From Pirellulaceae bacterium (lineage in GTDB: Bacteria; Planctomycetota; Planctomycetia; Pirellulales; Pirellulaceae): a stretch of 5,459 nt of DNA. Below, piece after piece: positions 172 to 5,307 of the stretch. The stretch covers positions 1-5,459 of the forward strand of contig JABDKS010000050.1 of NCBI GenBank assembly GCA_013002105.1, written 5' to 3'. The notes under the pieces are model-generated. The model did no database searches. It was not told where the DNA came from and saw only the letters and a list, made by a program, of their open reading frames with translations. How positions within the stretch are numbered: position 1 is the first letter of the stretch; each line of letters starts with the position of its first letter. The translations under genes were made by a program, and so were the position numbers.

Positions 172-2142
172 CTAGTCGTCCGACTTGGCATCTTCGAGCT
201 GTTGTCGGAGCCTTTCGATTTCGGCTTCTAGTTCCGATATCTTTTTCTCAGCCTGTGTAGCTGGAGTCTTCGCCGGCTTGATCTTGGACGGTTCGTTCTG
301 TTTGGGTGGTTCCAGTTTGATCACCGACGGAGGATCCGTTTTTGCCGCTGGCGTCGGAGAGGGTGCATCGACGGGTTTCTTTTCTGAACGCTGCGGTGCG
401 TCATCGAAATCGGGCTCAGGTATCGGGATGTCCAACACAGACGATTCGAAGATTGTTTGCTCAATCGGTTCGGCATCGCCAAACGCCATTTCGTCGGAGT
501 TGCTGACGCCACTGGCTGGTACGACTGTCGCTGGCGTCGGTTGGTTGGCGGCTTGAGGAGTTGTCGGTGGCACCGTCGCGGGTTTGTTAGTCGACGAAGT
601 GTTCGGTTCCGACTTGGCGGATGGGTTCTCATTCGCAGAGTCTGCTACCGCAGGATTTTTGCTGGACGGTTTACTGCCAAATAAACCACCAATCATCGAT
701 CCGACACCGCCCAGGACACTCCCGCCGGCGCTCGGGTCGCTTTTGCTGGCCTCAGGCGCCTGCGCGGCAATCCCCGATTCGGTCGCTCCGGCAGCGCCGG
801 ACGGCGACGCGTTGGCCAAGGAGACGTTCGATGCGACCAAACGATTACTACGAACCAATTGAACGGCGACGGTCTCGCCGTCGCGACGCGTCGAAAACTC
901 GCGGATCAAGCTATCCGTGTTGGCCACCATTCGTCCGTCGAGCGAAACGATTCGGTCGCCCACCTTCATTCCTGCCCGCGACGCGGGCGAATCTGGATCA
1001 ACACCGACGATAACAGCACCACGTGTCCCAGGTCTGTCCTCGACCTCGACACCTAACTGCACTCTTTCGGATGAATCGGGTCGCTTGGGCTTCGGTGATG
1101 GATCGACAGCGAGAGGCTGTGTGCGTACGGACGCAGAACGCGAACGATTTGGCGACGCGGTCATTGGAGCAACTCGCGATGCGGCTGCCGCCGTCGATGG
1201 CTTCGCCGCCGAATTGGGTACGCCCAGCTGCGACGCTGCCGGTGGTGCCGTCTGCGACTCGGCAACCAACGGCACCGATAAGTCCATCACCCGGATACCT
1301 CGACCAATCCGCAGTTTTGCCTGTTGACCGGTTTGTAAATCGTCCAGCAAGCCGTGCAGTGCATCGATCGTGGGTGTAGGTTGGCCATTGAGCGAATAAA
1401 TTTTGTCGCCGGCACGCAATCCCGCCTCTTTGGCCCGCGAGTGATCTTGAAAACTCACGACTTCCAGTGCGGGGATCCCGGATCGCTTCTCGACTACCTG
1501 CAGACCCAACGTTGGTCGCAAATTCGAGAGATCATTACGTTGGGGCGCGTTGTTCAAAATCGAGTCGCCGGCATCGACTTTCGATTTATTGGGCGACGTT
1601 TTGTCGGACGACGTTGTTGCTTGATGTGATGCGACTGCCTGAATGTCTGCCGGATTAACCGAAACGATTCGACGCGTCCGCGTGTCAATGACAACTTTTT
1701 GTCCGCTTCGTGGATCAATCACGACGCCGAGGAACGGAGCTGACGGATCGAATTTGTCTGAATCATTCCGGGCATCGCCCAGTGTGATCGGTTGACCGGT
1801 ACGTGAATCAACCACGATTTTTTGCGCGCTGGACGAATTCGCAATGGGCCGCCCTGTACGCGGATCGATTCGACTCGCTGGCGGTTGAACGCGATAAACC
1901 TGCGTTGGGACGCGTTGACTGGGGTTCGTTTGCGGACGTGTTTGCGGCGCCGGTTGCGGCGTGAACTGCTGAACACGCGACCGAATACGCTGCAAGATTC
2001 CTTGGGCGCTAGCGTGTGGCACATCGGCCGCAAACACGACAATGACCGACGCAATCGCGAGACCGCGCGCGAATCGTGTTGCCGATGTCATTTGATACGT
2101 AGATTCTAGAATCGATTGAACGTTCATTCCGCTTCGTTTCAT
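172..2142 (-). CDS. Exported protein with two PDZ domains, glycine zipper and C-terminal coiled coil
   Basis: The 656-residue product has a signal-peptide-like N-terminus: basic residues near 22-26, a hydrophobic core at about 28-39 (GLAIASVIVVFAA), then an AxA site (HASA, 43-46, before QG). If translation begins at M18 (ATG at 2091) instead of M1, the signal peptide has a more usual length; neither start has a well-spaced Shine-Dalgarno. After a Pro/Gln-rich stretch (60-90) comes a repeat block (91-160) with four copies of a short Asp-x-Arg-Thr/Ser motif. PDZ1 spans about 210-293 (AGLRAGDKIYSLNG) and PDZ2 about 361-442 (AGMKVGDRIVSLDG). A glycine-zipper segment (473-489) precedes a disordered Pro/Ser/Lys region (490-628), and residues 631-652 form a coiled coil with I635, L638, I642, L645 and L649 at a/d positions. 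No trypsin-like protease domain or GNSGGP-type motif is present, so this is not a DegP/HtrA protease. A periplasmic or envelope scaffold is a reasonable inference; the exact role is unknown. It is divergent from dnaA. Confidence 0.9.
   Translation of the reverse strand: MKRSGMNVQSILESTYQMTSATRFARGLAIASVIVVFAADVPHASAQGILQRIRSRVQQFTPQPAPQTRPQTNPSQRVPTQVYRVQPPASRIDPRTGRPIANSSSAQKIVVDSRTGQPITLGDARNDSDKFDPSAPFLGVVIDPRSGQKVVIDTRTRRIVSVNPADIQAVASHQATTSSDKTSPNKSKVDAGDSILNNAPQRNDLSNLRPTLGLQVVEKRSGIPALEVVSFQDHSRAKEAGLRAGDKIYSLNGQPTPTIDALHGLLDDLQTGQQAKLRIGRGIRVMDLSVPLVAESQTAPPAASQLGVPNSAAKPSTAAAASRVAPMTASPNRSRSASVRTQPLAVDPSPKPKRPDSSERVQLGVEVEDRPGTRGAVIVGVDPDSPASRAGMKVGDRIVSLDGRMVANTDSLIREFSTRRDGETVAVQLVRSNRLVASNVSLANASPSGAAGATESGIAAQAPEASKSDPSAGGSVLGGVGSMIGGLFGSKPSSKNPAVADSANENPSAKSEPNTSSTNKPATVPPTTPQAANQPTPATVVPASGVSNSDEMAFGDAEPIEQTIFESSVLDIPIPEPDFDDAPQRSEKKPVDAPSPTPAAKTDPPSVIKLEPPKQNEPSKIKPAKTPATQAEKKISELEAEIERLRQQLEDAKSDD
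1663..1872 (-). repeat. Short repeat block in the PDZ protein (Asp-x-Arg-Thr/Ser motif)
   Basis: Residues 91-160 contain RIDPRTGRPI (91-100), VVDSRTGQPI (110-119), VIDPRSGQKV (141-150) and VIDTRTRRIV (151-160). The shared pattern is hydrophobic, Asp, any, Arg, Thr/Ser, mostly Gly, two residues, hydrophobic, which suggests short beta-strands joined by Asp/Gly turns. The last two copies are directly adjacent. I do not recognise a named domain. The block sits between the signal peptide and PDZ1, so it would lie on the exported side. Confidence 0.65.
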
Positions 2143-2979: not shown

Positions 2980-3127
2980 AACGCACTGGTCAATGCCACT
3001 GGTTGCGGAGAAATATTCCTAACCAATCCGGTGCCTAGCGACGTGCGTCAGGCCCGTATTTTGTTGCCTTAGCGGTACGACCTGACAGGCAATCGGTCCG
3101 ACCTTTGACAATCGAACCAATCGGCGT

Positions 3128-3155
3128 TTGACTTGTGTGCTAGCAAACATAGAAT
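3128..3155 (+). promoter_or_regulatory. Sigma70-type promoter reading toward dnaA
   Basis: TTGACT (3128-3133, 5/6 to the -35 consensus) and TAGAAT (3150-3155, 5/6 to the -10 consensus) are separated by 16 nt. Transcription would start near 3162 and give a leader of about 260 nt before the ATG at 3421. The spacer, TGTGTGCTAGCAAACA, is a near-perfect palindrome with a single mismatched pair, suggesting that a dimeric regulator could bind exactly between the two promoter elements. It is the best promoter-like pair I could find upstream of dnaA. Confidence 0.55.
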
Positions 3156-3158
3156 CTG

Positions 3159-3224: not shown

Positions 3225-3293
3225 ACCCGGCGGAGCTAGGTTGGCTACACTTCTTTTGCCAACGCTACGGTTGCCATTTTCCTCGCTCTGCAC

Positions 3294-3335
3294 TGTTCAT
3301 TAGTAAATGTTCATTGGTAACTGTTCGTTGATCGG
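3294..3335. repeat. Three tandem 14-nt direct repeats upstream of dnaA
   Basis: The units are TGTTCATTAGTAAA (3294-3307), TGTTCATTGGTAAC (3308-3321) and TGTTCGTTGATCGG (3322-3335). The first two differ at two positions; the third keeps the TGTTC-TT core. The array ends 85 nt before the ATG at 3421 and lies inside the predicted leader. The first unit is 11/14 A+T. The arrangement could be an iteron-like binding array for DnaA or another regulator, or an unwinding element analogous to the AT-rich 13-mers of E. coli oriC. Both are inference. Confidence 0.75.
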
Positions 3336-3420: not shown

Positions 3421-5229
3421 ATGATGGAGGATTGCGCTTCCCGTATGTCTGCAACGCAAGGCTGCAACGATGACAAGGCTGTCGTCGAATCATTCAAGGA
3501 GGCGCTCAAGCAACGGGTTGGTTTGGACATTTTCCAGGCGTGGTTTGCAAGCGGAGTCGAGTTTCGTGTGACGTTTGACGCAGCCGCGCCAGCGCCGTCG
3601 GCTGACTCTCAAGACACATCATCATCGAATCCGCCACCGCAGTTATCGGCCGCTGCAGCGGGACAGGTCGTTGTTGAAGTCCAGCGTCAGTTCGCGCTTG
3701 ATCGCTTGCGTCGCAACTTTGTTCGCGAACTACGTGGCGCGGCGATGCAAGTGTGCGGAATCGCAATGGAAATTGACTTGGTGTTGGCTCCCCAGCCGCA
3801 ACAAGTCGAATTGCCATTGGGCCAAGAGTCGGAAAATCGCAGCGGTGTCACATCATCCGCAGCGTTACCAACTGCTTCGCCGGTCGCCGAGAAAAAGTCC
3901 CGAAAAAGTCGGGCACCGCAACGAAACAAACGCAAAACCAAGTCGCTGTCGACACTCGTCAAGCACCGCAAGGGTTCTTCGGATGTCGGATTGAACCAGC
4001 CCAGCTTGCCACAGTTTGCTGGTCAGCAAGACGTTCCGACCGGTTCGGGAATCCAAGCGGTCTGTCAGCCAGATCGGGTCGGTCAAAACGAACCAAGTTG
4101 TCAACCAGAATCGGACACGCAAATTGCAACGGTCGGGTCGGATTCAGGTGATACGGAACTTGGTTCGGTACCCGCACGAGAGGCTTCGTCGACGCGGCGG
4201 CAGACGCTCGAGACATTTGTCGCGGGCAAGTGCAATCAATTGGCACGCACGGCGGCACAGTTGGTTTGCGAAACCCCGAGTGCCGCGTCTCCCATGTTCC
4301 TGGCGGGCCCTCCCGGCGTCGGTAAAACTCACTTGTTACTCGCAATTGCGGATCAATTACGTCGGCGCCAGCGAATGCGACGCGTGATTCATTTATCTGC
4401 CGAAAAGTTTACGAATGATTTTGTCCATTGTCTTTCGGGGCACACACTGACATCGTTTCGGGCTCGTTATCGCGACGTTGACGCGTTGTTGGTTGACGAC
4501 GTCCAGTTTTTGAGTGCCAAAAAAGCGACGCTTCGCGAGATGCTCTACACGGTAGAATGGTTGACCGACCGCGGCAAAACACTCGTATTCGCTGGATCCC
4601 ACACGCCCCACGAGATATCAGGACTGACGCCTGAATTGTCTGGCCGGATGTCGGCTGGGTTGGTCTGTTCGATGCAATCGTTGGACGCCGCAACACGCGA
4701 GTCGATTTTGAGGACTGAAATCGAACAGCGGTGTGCGTTCGCTTGGCCAGAAGAAATGGTGCATGAGATAAACGTCAGTTTAGCCGGCGATGGCCGGCGA
4801 ATTCACGGGATCGTCAATTTGGTTGGTGCACTGCAGCGAATGTATGGACGAATGCCAACGATGGATGAGATTCGGCAATTTGGCGGTGATCAGTTGCGCA
4901 GTAACAAGCCAGTCGTCACACTGATGACGATCGAACGTGCGGTCGCACAGACATTCCAATTGCAGAGCGAAACGTTGCGAAGCAAATCGCAGGCTCGCAC
5001 GGCCACGGAACCGCGAATGTTGGCAATGTATTTGTCCCGCGAACTGACCTCGTCCGCCTTTGCGGAAATCGGTCGGTTTTACGGTGGACGGAGTCATAGT
5101 GCGGCGATTTTGGCGATACGTCGCGTCGAATCGTGGCTTGCCAGCGGCAAATCGGTTGGTCGCGGTCCCGCGGCACTTTCGGCGCGAGACGCACTGGATC
5201 GCGTCGAAAGCCTGCTCCGCAGTGGATAA
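3421..5229 (+). CDS. dnaA: Chromosomal replication initiator protein DnaA, divergent
   Basis: DnaA is the AAA+ ATPase that binds origin boxes, melts the duplex and helps load the DnaB helicase. Numbering is from ATG 3421 (602 residues; family usually about 440-480). Domain I is at 20-120, split by a Pro/Ser/Ala-rich insert at 54-81. A long linker (121-253) carries a basic patch (158-184). The AAA+ domain (about 260-475) shows Walker A GPPGVGKT (296-303), Walker B LLVDDVQF (356-363), arginine finger R409 and sensor 2 R459. Domain IV (about 497-573) has the helix-turn-helix signature as GGRSHSAA (555-562) instead of GGRDHTTV. By manual alignment with E. coli, R281 is Glu405, R399 Gln524, R405 Glu530, D433 Ser558, T435 Ser560 and T436 Ala561, while H434 and R407 are kept. 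The frame is open from TTG 3385; ATG 3421, 3424 and 3445 are alternatives and conserved sequence begins after all of them. A divergent DnaA paralogue is possible, but the domain order is complete. No dnaN follows within the 230 bases available. Confidence 0.93.
   Translation: MMEDCASRMSATQGCNDDKAVVESFKEALKQRVGLDIFQAWFASGVEFRVTFDAAAPAPSADSQDTSSSNPPPQLSAAAAGQVVVEVQRQFALDRLRRNFVRELRGAAMQVCGIAMEIDLVLAPQPQQVELPLGQESENRSGVTSSAALPTASPVAEKKSRKSRAPQRNKRKTKSLSTLVKHRKGSSDVGLNQPSLPQFAGQQDVPTGSGIQAVCQPDRVGQNEPSCQPESDTQIATVGSDSGDTELGSVPAREASSTRRQTLETFVAGKCNQLARTAAQLVCETPSAASPMFLAGPPGVGKTHLLLAIADQLRRRQRMRRVIHLSAEKFTNDFVHCLSGHTLTSFRARYRDVDALLVDDVQFLSAKKATLREMLYTVEWLTDRGKTLVFAGSHTPHEISGLTPELSGRMSAGLVCSMQSLDAATRESILRTEIEQRCAFAWPEEMVHEINVSLAGDGRRIHGIVNLVGALQRMYGRMPTMDEIRQFGGDQLRSNKPVVTLMTIERAVAQTFQLQSETLRSKSQARTATEPRMLAMYLSRELTSSAFAEIGRFYGGRSHSAAILAIRRVESWLASGKSVGRGPAALSARDALDRVESLLRSG
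3425..3431 (+). promoter_or_regulatory. Shine-Dalgarno-like TGGAGGA inside the dnaA start region
   Basis: This is the only strong purine-rich site near the start of dnaA. It lies about 14 nt upstream of the ATG at 3445, longer than the usual 5-10 nt, and it overlaps codons 2-4 of the ATG-3421 frame. If used, it favours a 594-residue protein starting MSATQG; the choice of start stays open. Confidence 0.3.
3891..3912. repeat. 11-nt tandem duplication in the dnaA linker
   Basis: GAAAAAGTCCC (3891-3901) is followed by GAAAAAGTCGG (3902-3912), 9/11 identical. It encodes the start of the basic patch (EKKSRKSR). Because 11 is not a multiple of three, the two copies are read in different frames, so a slippage duplication here would have needed compensation elsewhere; chance A-rich similarity is the alternative. 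Confidence 0.4.
5221..5229 (-). promoter_or_regulatory. Near-consensus DnaA box overlapping the dnaA stop codon
   Basis: On the minus strand the 9-mer reads TTATCCACT, 8/9 to the consensus TTATCCACA, and includes the TAA stop codon. It forms part of a hairpin, CAGTGG (5220-5225) with CCACTG (5232-5237). It lies directly against the tandem array that follows. A single 8/9 match can arise by chance. Confidence 0.35.
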
Positions 5230-5231
5230 GG

Positions 5232-5307
5232 CCACTGAGGAACAGTCCACAATGGAAAAGTCCGCAATGGAATAGGTCCACAGTGCAAAAAACCGCGGTG
5301 GAGCAAG
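5232..5307. repeat. Five tandem 15-16-nt units downstream of dnaA
   Basis: The units are CCACTGAGGAACAGT (5232-5246), CCACAATGGAAAAGT (5247-5261), CCGCAATGGAATAGGT (5262-5277), CCACAGTGCAAAAAA (5278-5292) and CCGCGGTGGAGCAAG (5293-5307). The shared pattern is CC-A/G-C, two variable bases, TGGA, then an A-rich tail. Units 2 and 4 contain TCCACA with the preceding T, the 3' part of the DnaA-box consensus. Translated, the array gives five-residue periodicity, but it starts after the dnaA stop and no gene covering it is credible. It may be an iteron-like binding array or a simple repeat expanded by slippage. Confidence 0.7.

Follow-up and report, generated by a model that had tools for sequence, protein, structure and literature searches.

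A single protein, DnaA, is regarded as performing every step from the reading of the boxes to the recruitment of the helicase. Beside it work AAA+ relatives such as Hda, which has no domain IV, and the DnaC/DnaI loaders. The positions at which DnaA contacts bases have been published as 399, 423, 432–435 and 438–439 (PMC5043019, PMC7561715). Thermotoga maritima has a DnaA whose contact residues deviate from the standard (PMC7561715); it reads NRSHP in our alignment and uses boxes of its own, the tmaDnaA boxes (PMC10316083). The duplication of dnaA is in itself already known: there are three copies of dnaA in Ca. Kuenenia, of which one alone adjoins dnaN and gyrB, at the skew origin (PMC7709395), and Waddlia, of the Chlamydiae, has DnaA1 and DnaA3 (PMC4989314). 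As far as the accessible parts of these two papers go, neither complementary domain losses nor dnaB linkage nor rewritten contacts are described for these multiple DnaAs. In the available sections of planctomycete genome papers other than that on Kuenenia, dnaA is mentioned only for setting the start of the record. A domain split together with dnaB linkage was not found in the literature on planctomycete DnaA and oriC or on paired DnaAs, a search that covered mostly journals outside subscription.

The planctomycete DnaA described here is similar to the canonical DnaA of E. coli and B. subtilis in its AAA+ and HTH domains, its Walker motifs and its best structural match, but six of its eight base contacts are changed, and in the relatives its gene is found away from the skew origin with no dnaN adjoining and a second DnaA is present. 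It shares the departure from the standard contacts with the T. maritima protein, which differs in that it acts at its own oriC. The linkage of the gene to dnaB recalls a helicase helper of the Hda or DnaC/DnaI kind; contrary to Hda, however, the protein has a domain IV, and it scores far below the cut-off of the Hda model. The DnaA of the window probably does not itself mark the origin of replication, and the role of the bacterial initiator may in this case be divided between two proteins.

The long DnaA and its gene

The window, by which we mean the whole stretch of DNA analysed, is a contig of 5459 bases whose closest named relatives are Pirellulaceae, e.g. Planctomycetes bacterium K23_9. 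Its features are as follows.

172..2142, minus strand: PDZ-domain gene, divergent neighbour of dnaA
2966..2979, plus strand: conserved element ACANNTTWTCCAC plus one base, here ACAGGTTTTCCACC
3127..3157, plus strand: conserved promoter with TTGACT (3128–3133), the palindromic TGCTAGCAA (3138–3146) and TAGAAT (3150–3155), from the footprint alignment and a promoter scan
3421..5229, plus strand: long-type dnaA, 602 aa, alternative starts at 3424 or 3445
3466..3798, plus strand: N-terminal domain-I-like part with a disordered insert (residues 8–118 of the AlphaFold2 model of P0001)
3808..4191, plus strand: disordered linker, domain II (model residues 122–249, pLDDT below 50)
4192..4899, plus strand: AAA+ domain with Walker A, Walker B, FRARYR stretch, arginine-finger R and sensor-2 R retained (alignment to B. 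subtilis DnaA)
4915..5229, plus strand: domain IV with rewritten contacts 399Q, 423A, 433S, 435S, 438I and 439L; the stretch noted earlier, 4990–5103, falls inside it

The protein belongs to the DnaA family in the broad sense, with PF00308 (141.5 bits) and PF08299 (65.6 bits) both above cut-off. It stays below the cut-off of TIGR00362, the DnaA equivalog that NCBI names chromosomal initiator (288.7 against 343.9 bits), and below that of the Hda equivalog (77.7 against 194.8 bits). In the AlphaFold2 model (mean pLDDT 74.5) the N-terminal domain is ordered and the linker disordered, followed by the AAA+ domain and domain IV; the best Foldseek structural match of the model is B. subtilis DnaA (8btg). 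In residues 8–118 the pLDDT is mostly above 84, except for residues 41–70. The domain I profile PF11638 (DnaA_N) gave no call in the window protein and exceeded its cut-off only in one relative (P0111), and the N-terminal part had no match to DnaA among PDB sequences. The motif names in the AAA+ domain (Walker A and B, arginine finger, sensor-2) are those that we presume to apply, and the FRxRYR stretch is one that we take to belong to the strand-binding part of DnaA.

K23_9 also has a PDZ-domain gene next to dnaA, for which no role is proposed. On the 3' side of this gene in the window, a perfect inverted repeat was seen by eye at 91–140, with 20-bp arms (TAGGCCAGGACCTGTCCTGG and CCAGGACAGGTCCTGGCCTA) and a loop of 10 bases, possibly a terminator or a mobile repeat. 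Repeats phased by about 15 bases (AGTCCACAATGGAAA-like) were observed directly 3' of the dnaA stop, at 5239–5290, and three copies of TGTTCATTRGTAA at a spacing of 14 bases between the promoter and the dnaA start, at 3292–3329. Both sets were rejected as DnaA sites: no matching array is found downstream of dnaA in six relatives, nor do the repeats appear among the top k-mers.

The contact surface of domain IV

The earlier note, made from the letters of the window, had reported five altered positions at or next to the DNA interface. The residues it named are correct in the 602-aa reading (Gln524, Glu530, Ser558, His559, Ser560 and Ala561), and an alignment to E. coli domain IV (1J1V) has all of R399Q, R405E, D433S, T435S and T436A, with R407 and H434 retained and R401 and R432 likewise unchanged. 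As contact residues, 399, 433, 434 and 435 hold good, but R405 and T436 fall outside the base-contact lists in the accessible parts of PMC5043019 and PMC7561715. Three contact changes have to be added, P423A, L438I and H439L, and altogether the contacts are not the standard ones: six of the eight base-contact positions are changed (399, 423, 433, 435, 438 and 439) and two retained (432 and 434).

The substitutions are mostly conserved among the 120 listed homologues. Q occupies position 399 in 112 of them and S position 433 in 118; H434 is kept in 119, S is found at 435 in 113, and R407 is present in all 120. Such strong retention shows that the contact pattern is under selection and not in decay. 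T436A is local, with A in 11 of the 120. The loss of D433 is broader: among 80 loci fetched with the long type as query, it is absent from the 64 titled planctomycete, Pirellulales, Phycisphaerae or similar, and retained in the 16 from other groups. Since the contact surface is rewritten, and rewritten lineage-wide, it is plausible that the long DnaA has a changed DNA specificity. The retention of R407, R415, R/K432 and H434 implies that the long-type domain IV would still bind DNA, yet it does not seem to be the main reader of oriC.

A second, short DnaA in the relatives

A search with the domain IV profile PF08299 found two DnaAs in 12 of 12 related genomes, one long gene without D433 and one short gene with R399, D433 and H434. 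A second dnaA with standard contacts is what the earlier note itself had said would speak against its reading, and one with mostly standard contacts is present in all 12 related genomes searched; P423 is lost in the short type too. In Aeoliella and Botrimarina (G009 and G010) R399 is retained in the long gene. Judging by the relatives, the window's own organism would also have a short dnaA. A third, weak PF08299 match (31.8 bits, in a 344-aa frame) was observed in Neorhodopirellula pilleata (G005, C2:190272–190427, L105).

The short type is 365–429 aa long and the long type about 600 aa. Counted from stop to stop, 41–80 residues precede the AAA+ domain in the 12 short proteins (for three short genes at record starts, the N-terminal length was checked across the record start), which leaves no room for domain I and the linker. 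The 12 long relatives have 125–259 residues there, several of them clipped by the fetched stretch, and the window protein has 260. The FRxRYR stretch is missing from most short types and largely retained in the long ones. Five of the 12 short proteins were scored with the profiles: against PF00308 they reach 50.8–70.4 bits as compared to 141.5 for the window protein, and against PF08299 81.7–86.8 as compared to 65.6. The five are also below the cut-off of TIGR00362, at 175–213.5 bits. At the level of sequence, the losses of the long and the short DnaA are complementary.

In a tree of domains III and IV (L146 and L159 left out) the long and short types form one group each, and the short type is placed among canonical genes. 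In a tree of the AAA+ domain only, from which eight more rows (long or divergent) were omitted, long branches meet and the short type has no settled branch; its orthology therefore rests on synteny and domain IV.

Chromosomal position and gene neighbours

The records of K23_9, SV_7m_r and TBK1r all start at the short gene. Because such a start may reflect rotation of the records by the annotators, the GC skew was examined. In K23_9 (16 stretches) it is positive in 8 of 8 up to 3.97 Mb and negative in 8 of 8 from 4.54 Mb, and in SV_7m_r (22 stretches) the first 9 are positive and the next 13 negative, which places the skew origin at the short gene with a resolution of about 0.4–0.6 Mb. The long gene is far from it, at 5.11 of 7.95 Mb in K23_9 and 4.74 of 7.11 Mb in SV_7m_r, the two genomes sampled for skew; its position in TBK1r is 2.03 of 10.77 Mb.

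The gene next after the short one is dnaN in 10 of 12 genomes, and in the stretches read around the short gene of G005 and G006 no dnaN was found. Beside the long genes of L001–L051 no dnaN was seen. It is dnaB that comes next after the long gene, on the same strand, in 37 of 41 loci (L001–L040 and L058; three of the neighbours were checked with Pfam). The linkage is absent in L032, L033, L036 and L039, and in the other branches, L041–L051, it is found in 0 of 11 although the long gene is retained. It thus belongs to the window's clade and is not general in the order. Since the window ends 230 bases past dnaA, and the distance between the two frames in the relatives is 3–674 bases, we infer dnaB in the window's genome from the relatives only. 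DciA turned up in all 16 genomes searched. Its presence rules out the long DnaA as a substitute for a missing helicase loader and leaves no obvious need for another helicase partner.

Boxes upstream of the short and the long genes

In 10 of 12 genomes the short gene is preceded by boxes of the type TTTTCCAC; Aeoliella and Botrimarina have no TTWTCCAC there. This core occurs 29 times in the 8.5 kb upstream of the 12 short genes, a density about 86 times that in the interior of K23_9, where 280 kb contain 11 copies. Opposed TTTTCCAC boxes exactly 77 bp apart were seen in 8 of 12 genomes (at the ends of L109 and L111 and in G002, G003, G005, G006, G008 and G011), and in six of these eight there is a second box 12 bp on. 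The region of opposed boxes is a candidate planctomycete oriC, and from its position and boxes the short gene appears to carry out initiation. When the oriC tandem pair was searched with up to three mismatches, a match without mismatches was obtained only near the record end of TBK1r, and one with two mismatches near that of SV_7m_r. Elsewhere, K23_9 has one match with two mismatches and five with three, and TBK1r one more with three.

The earlier statement that the window has no exact TTATCCACA is literally correct but misleading, as a DnaA-box core, TTTTCCACC, is found at 2971–2979 within the highly conserved noncoding element upstream of the long dnaA. A scan of the window for TTATCCACA with up to two mismatches gave 8 matches against 9.1 expected, and the one-mismatch TTATCCACT at 5221–5229 on the minus strand is missing at the corresponding place in six relatives. 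Of the 35 loci with at least 600 nt of upstream sequence, 34 have TTWTCCAC on the plus strand ahead of the long gene, the exception being L058. ACA precedes it at −4 to −2 in all 34, and it is located 137–205 bases before a GCTAGC palindrome (33 loci measured; 168 in the window). Seven of 15 further long-type loci (L041–L051, L055, L057, L059 and L069) have it on the plus strand within 700 nt upstream. The ninth base of the long-gene element is C, G, T and A in 15, 12, 5 and 2 loci, as compared to A in 16 of 29 at the short genes (Fisher p 1.6e-5, a value that is too small because the sequences are related). The reader of this putative box may be either DnaA.

A strong k-mer signal upstream of the long gene, TTGCTAGCAA, was tried as the genome-wide box of the long protein and rejected, with 9–26 sites per genome against 16–33 for the reversed control in four genomes, the control being exceeded only in SV_7m_r. 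In that genome (G007) five copies of it are found within about 750 bases, at C1:512956–513709, far from the dnaA genes. Perfect matches to the full promoter are confined to the long gene in three genomes, looser matches do not exceed the control, and no regulon was obtained. The extended box CRACANNTTWTCCACB has 1, 4 and 0 sites in three genomes (reversed control 0), again with no regulon. One of these is upstream of the long gene; with ORFs defined by length only, two of the other four are inside long ORFs and two between ORFs.

The wider phylum sample

Among 79 genomes from the phylum of K23_9, 55 have at least two PF08299 matches (E 0.001), 21 have one and 3 none; in 53 of the 55, two matches exceed the cut-off. 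In 70 phylum loci DH is found in 25 of 28 with adjoining dnaN and in 12 of 42 without (Fisher p 4.7e-7), where 30 of the loci are best-scoring matches, which favours canonical genes, the poorly aligned L159 is counted as non-DH, and the Pirellulaceae DnaN used as query may miss distant DnaN. A canonical, dnaN-linked DnaA and a rewritten second DnaA are therefore common in this sample. The idea that single-copy genomes keep the canonical contacts was dropped: the 21 single-match genomes, which may be incomplete, are mixed, with DH in 7 of 7 of one set and 5 DH, 1 EH and 8 neither among the other 14. The second DnaAs of other planctomycetes (L156–L175, L183 and L187) have the helix-5 signatures NHTT, SPGT, SPAT, SCAT, SHAA and STGA, perhaps a sign of repeated re-tooling.

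Discussion

The reading that we rank first, with a probability of roughly one half, is a division of labour in which the short DnaA would read oriC and the long DnaA would serve in strand engagement and/or helicase recruitment. The short protein would recognise oriC, the long one would join it through AAA+ contacts and then engage single-stranded DNA and/or bring DnaB, and the expression of the long gene would be tied to initiation through the conserved box that precedes it. It is in favour of this that 12 of 12 genomes have two PF08299 genes, one rewritten and the other retaining R399, D433 and H434, that the short gene coincides with the skew origin in the two chromosomes sampled and has dnaN beside it in 10 of 12 genomes, that TTWTCCAC is enriched upstream of it, that in 37 of 41 loci the long gene is followed by dnaB, and that the losses are complementary. 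Against it are the presence of DciA in 16 of 16 genomes, the patchy dnaB linkage, the domain I that the profile fails to detect in the window protein, the unplaced AAA+ branch of the short type and the missing P423 in that type too. A more elaborate form is conceivable, in which the short DnaA, devoid of domain I, reads the duplex boxes of oriC, and the DnaB-linked long DnaA reads a changed sequence, possibly the ACANNTTWTCCAC element in its own promoter, and provides strand engagement and helicase recruitment within a mixed DnaA assembly at the origin. We put this forward tentatively, at something like one chance against two.

Second in rank, and somewhat more doubtful, is that the long DnaA is devoted to regulation, either of transcription or of replication (in an Hda-like, titrating or developmental role), binds altered sites of its own and does not open oriC. 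The location of the long gene away from the skew origin, the strong constraint on domain IV, as in a specific DNA binder, and the two deeply conserved elements in the promoter region all agree with this. However, the dnaB linkage, the retained domain-I-like part and the FRxRYR stretch point to replication, and the searches with TGCTAGCAA and the extended box yielded no regulon.

The long DnaA could also be a working initiator and helicase recruiter that acts at oriC through its altered contacts, with the short protein as an accessory for timing. Its fuller architecture and its higher PF00308 and TIGR00362 scores would fit, but the boxes on the oriC side have the standard core, which suits the domain IV of the short type better (81.7–86.8 against 65.6 bits), and we consider this improbable. 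Still less likely is a role with DnaB away from oriC, e.g. in restart, and none in initiation: dnaB is next in 37 of 41 loci and DciA is available for normal loading, but outside the window's clade the long gene is retained with no dnaB linkage (0 of 11). The different box of the earlier note, in which this DnaA is the cell's initiator at an origin of a new kind, survives as a rewritten, lineage-wide surface with a plausible change of specificity, but as a sole initiator it has the smallest chance of all, since for all the rewritten contacts and the missing exact TTATCCACA, the relatives have a mostly standard second DnaA at a skew origin with TTTTCCAC boxes, and the TTWTCCAC core is conserved even upstream of the long gene.

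To place oriC from dnaA annotation alone is unsafe. If the division of labour between a short and a long DnaA is true, it bears on why planctomycete genome projects meet more than one dnaA, three in the case of Kuenenia (PMC7709395). A natural DnaA pair with complementary losses would then make it possible to study each step of initiation separately.
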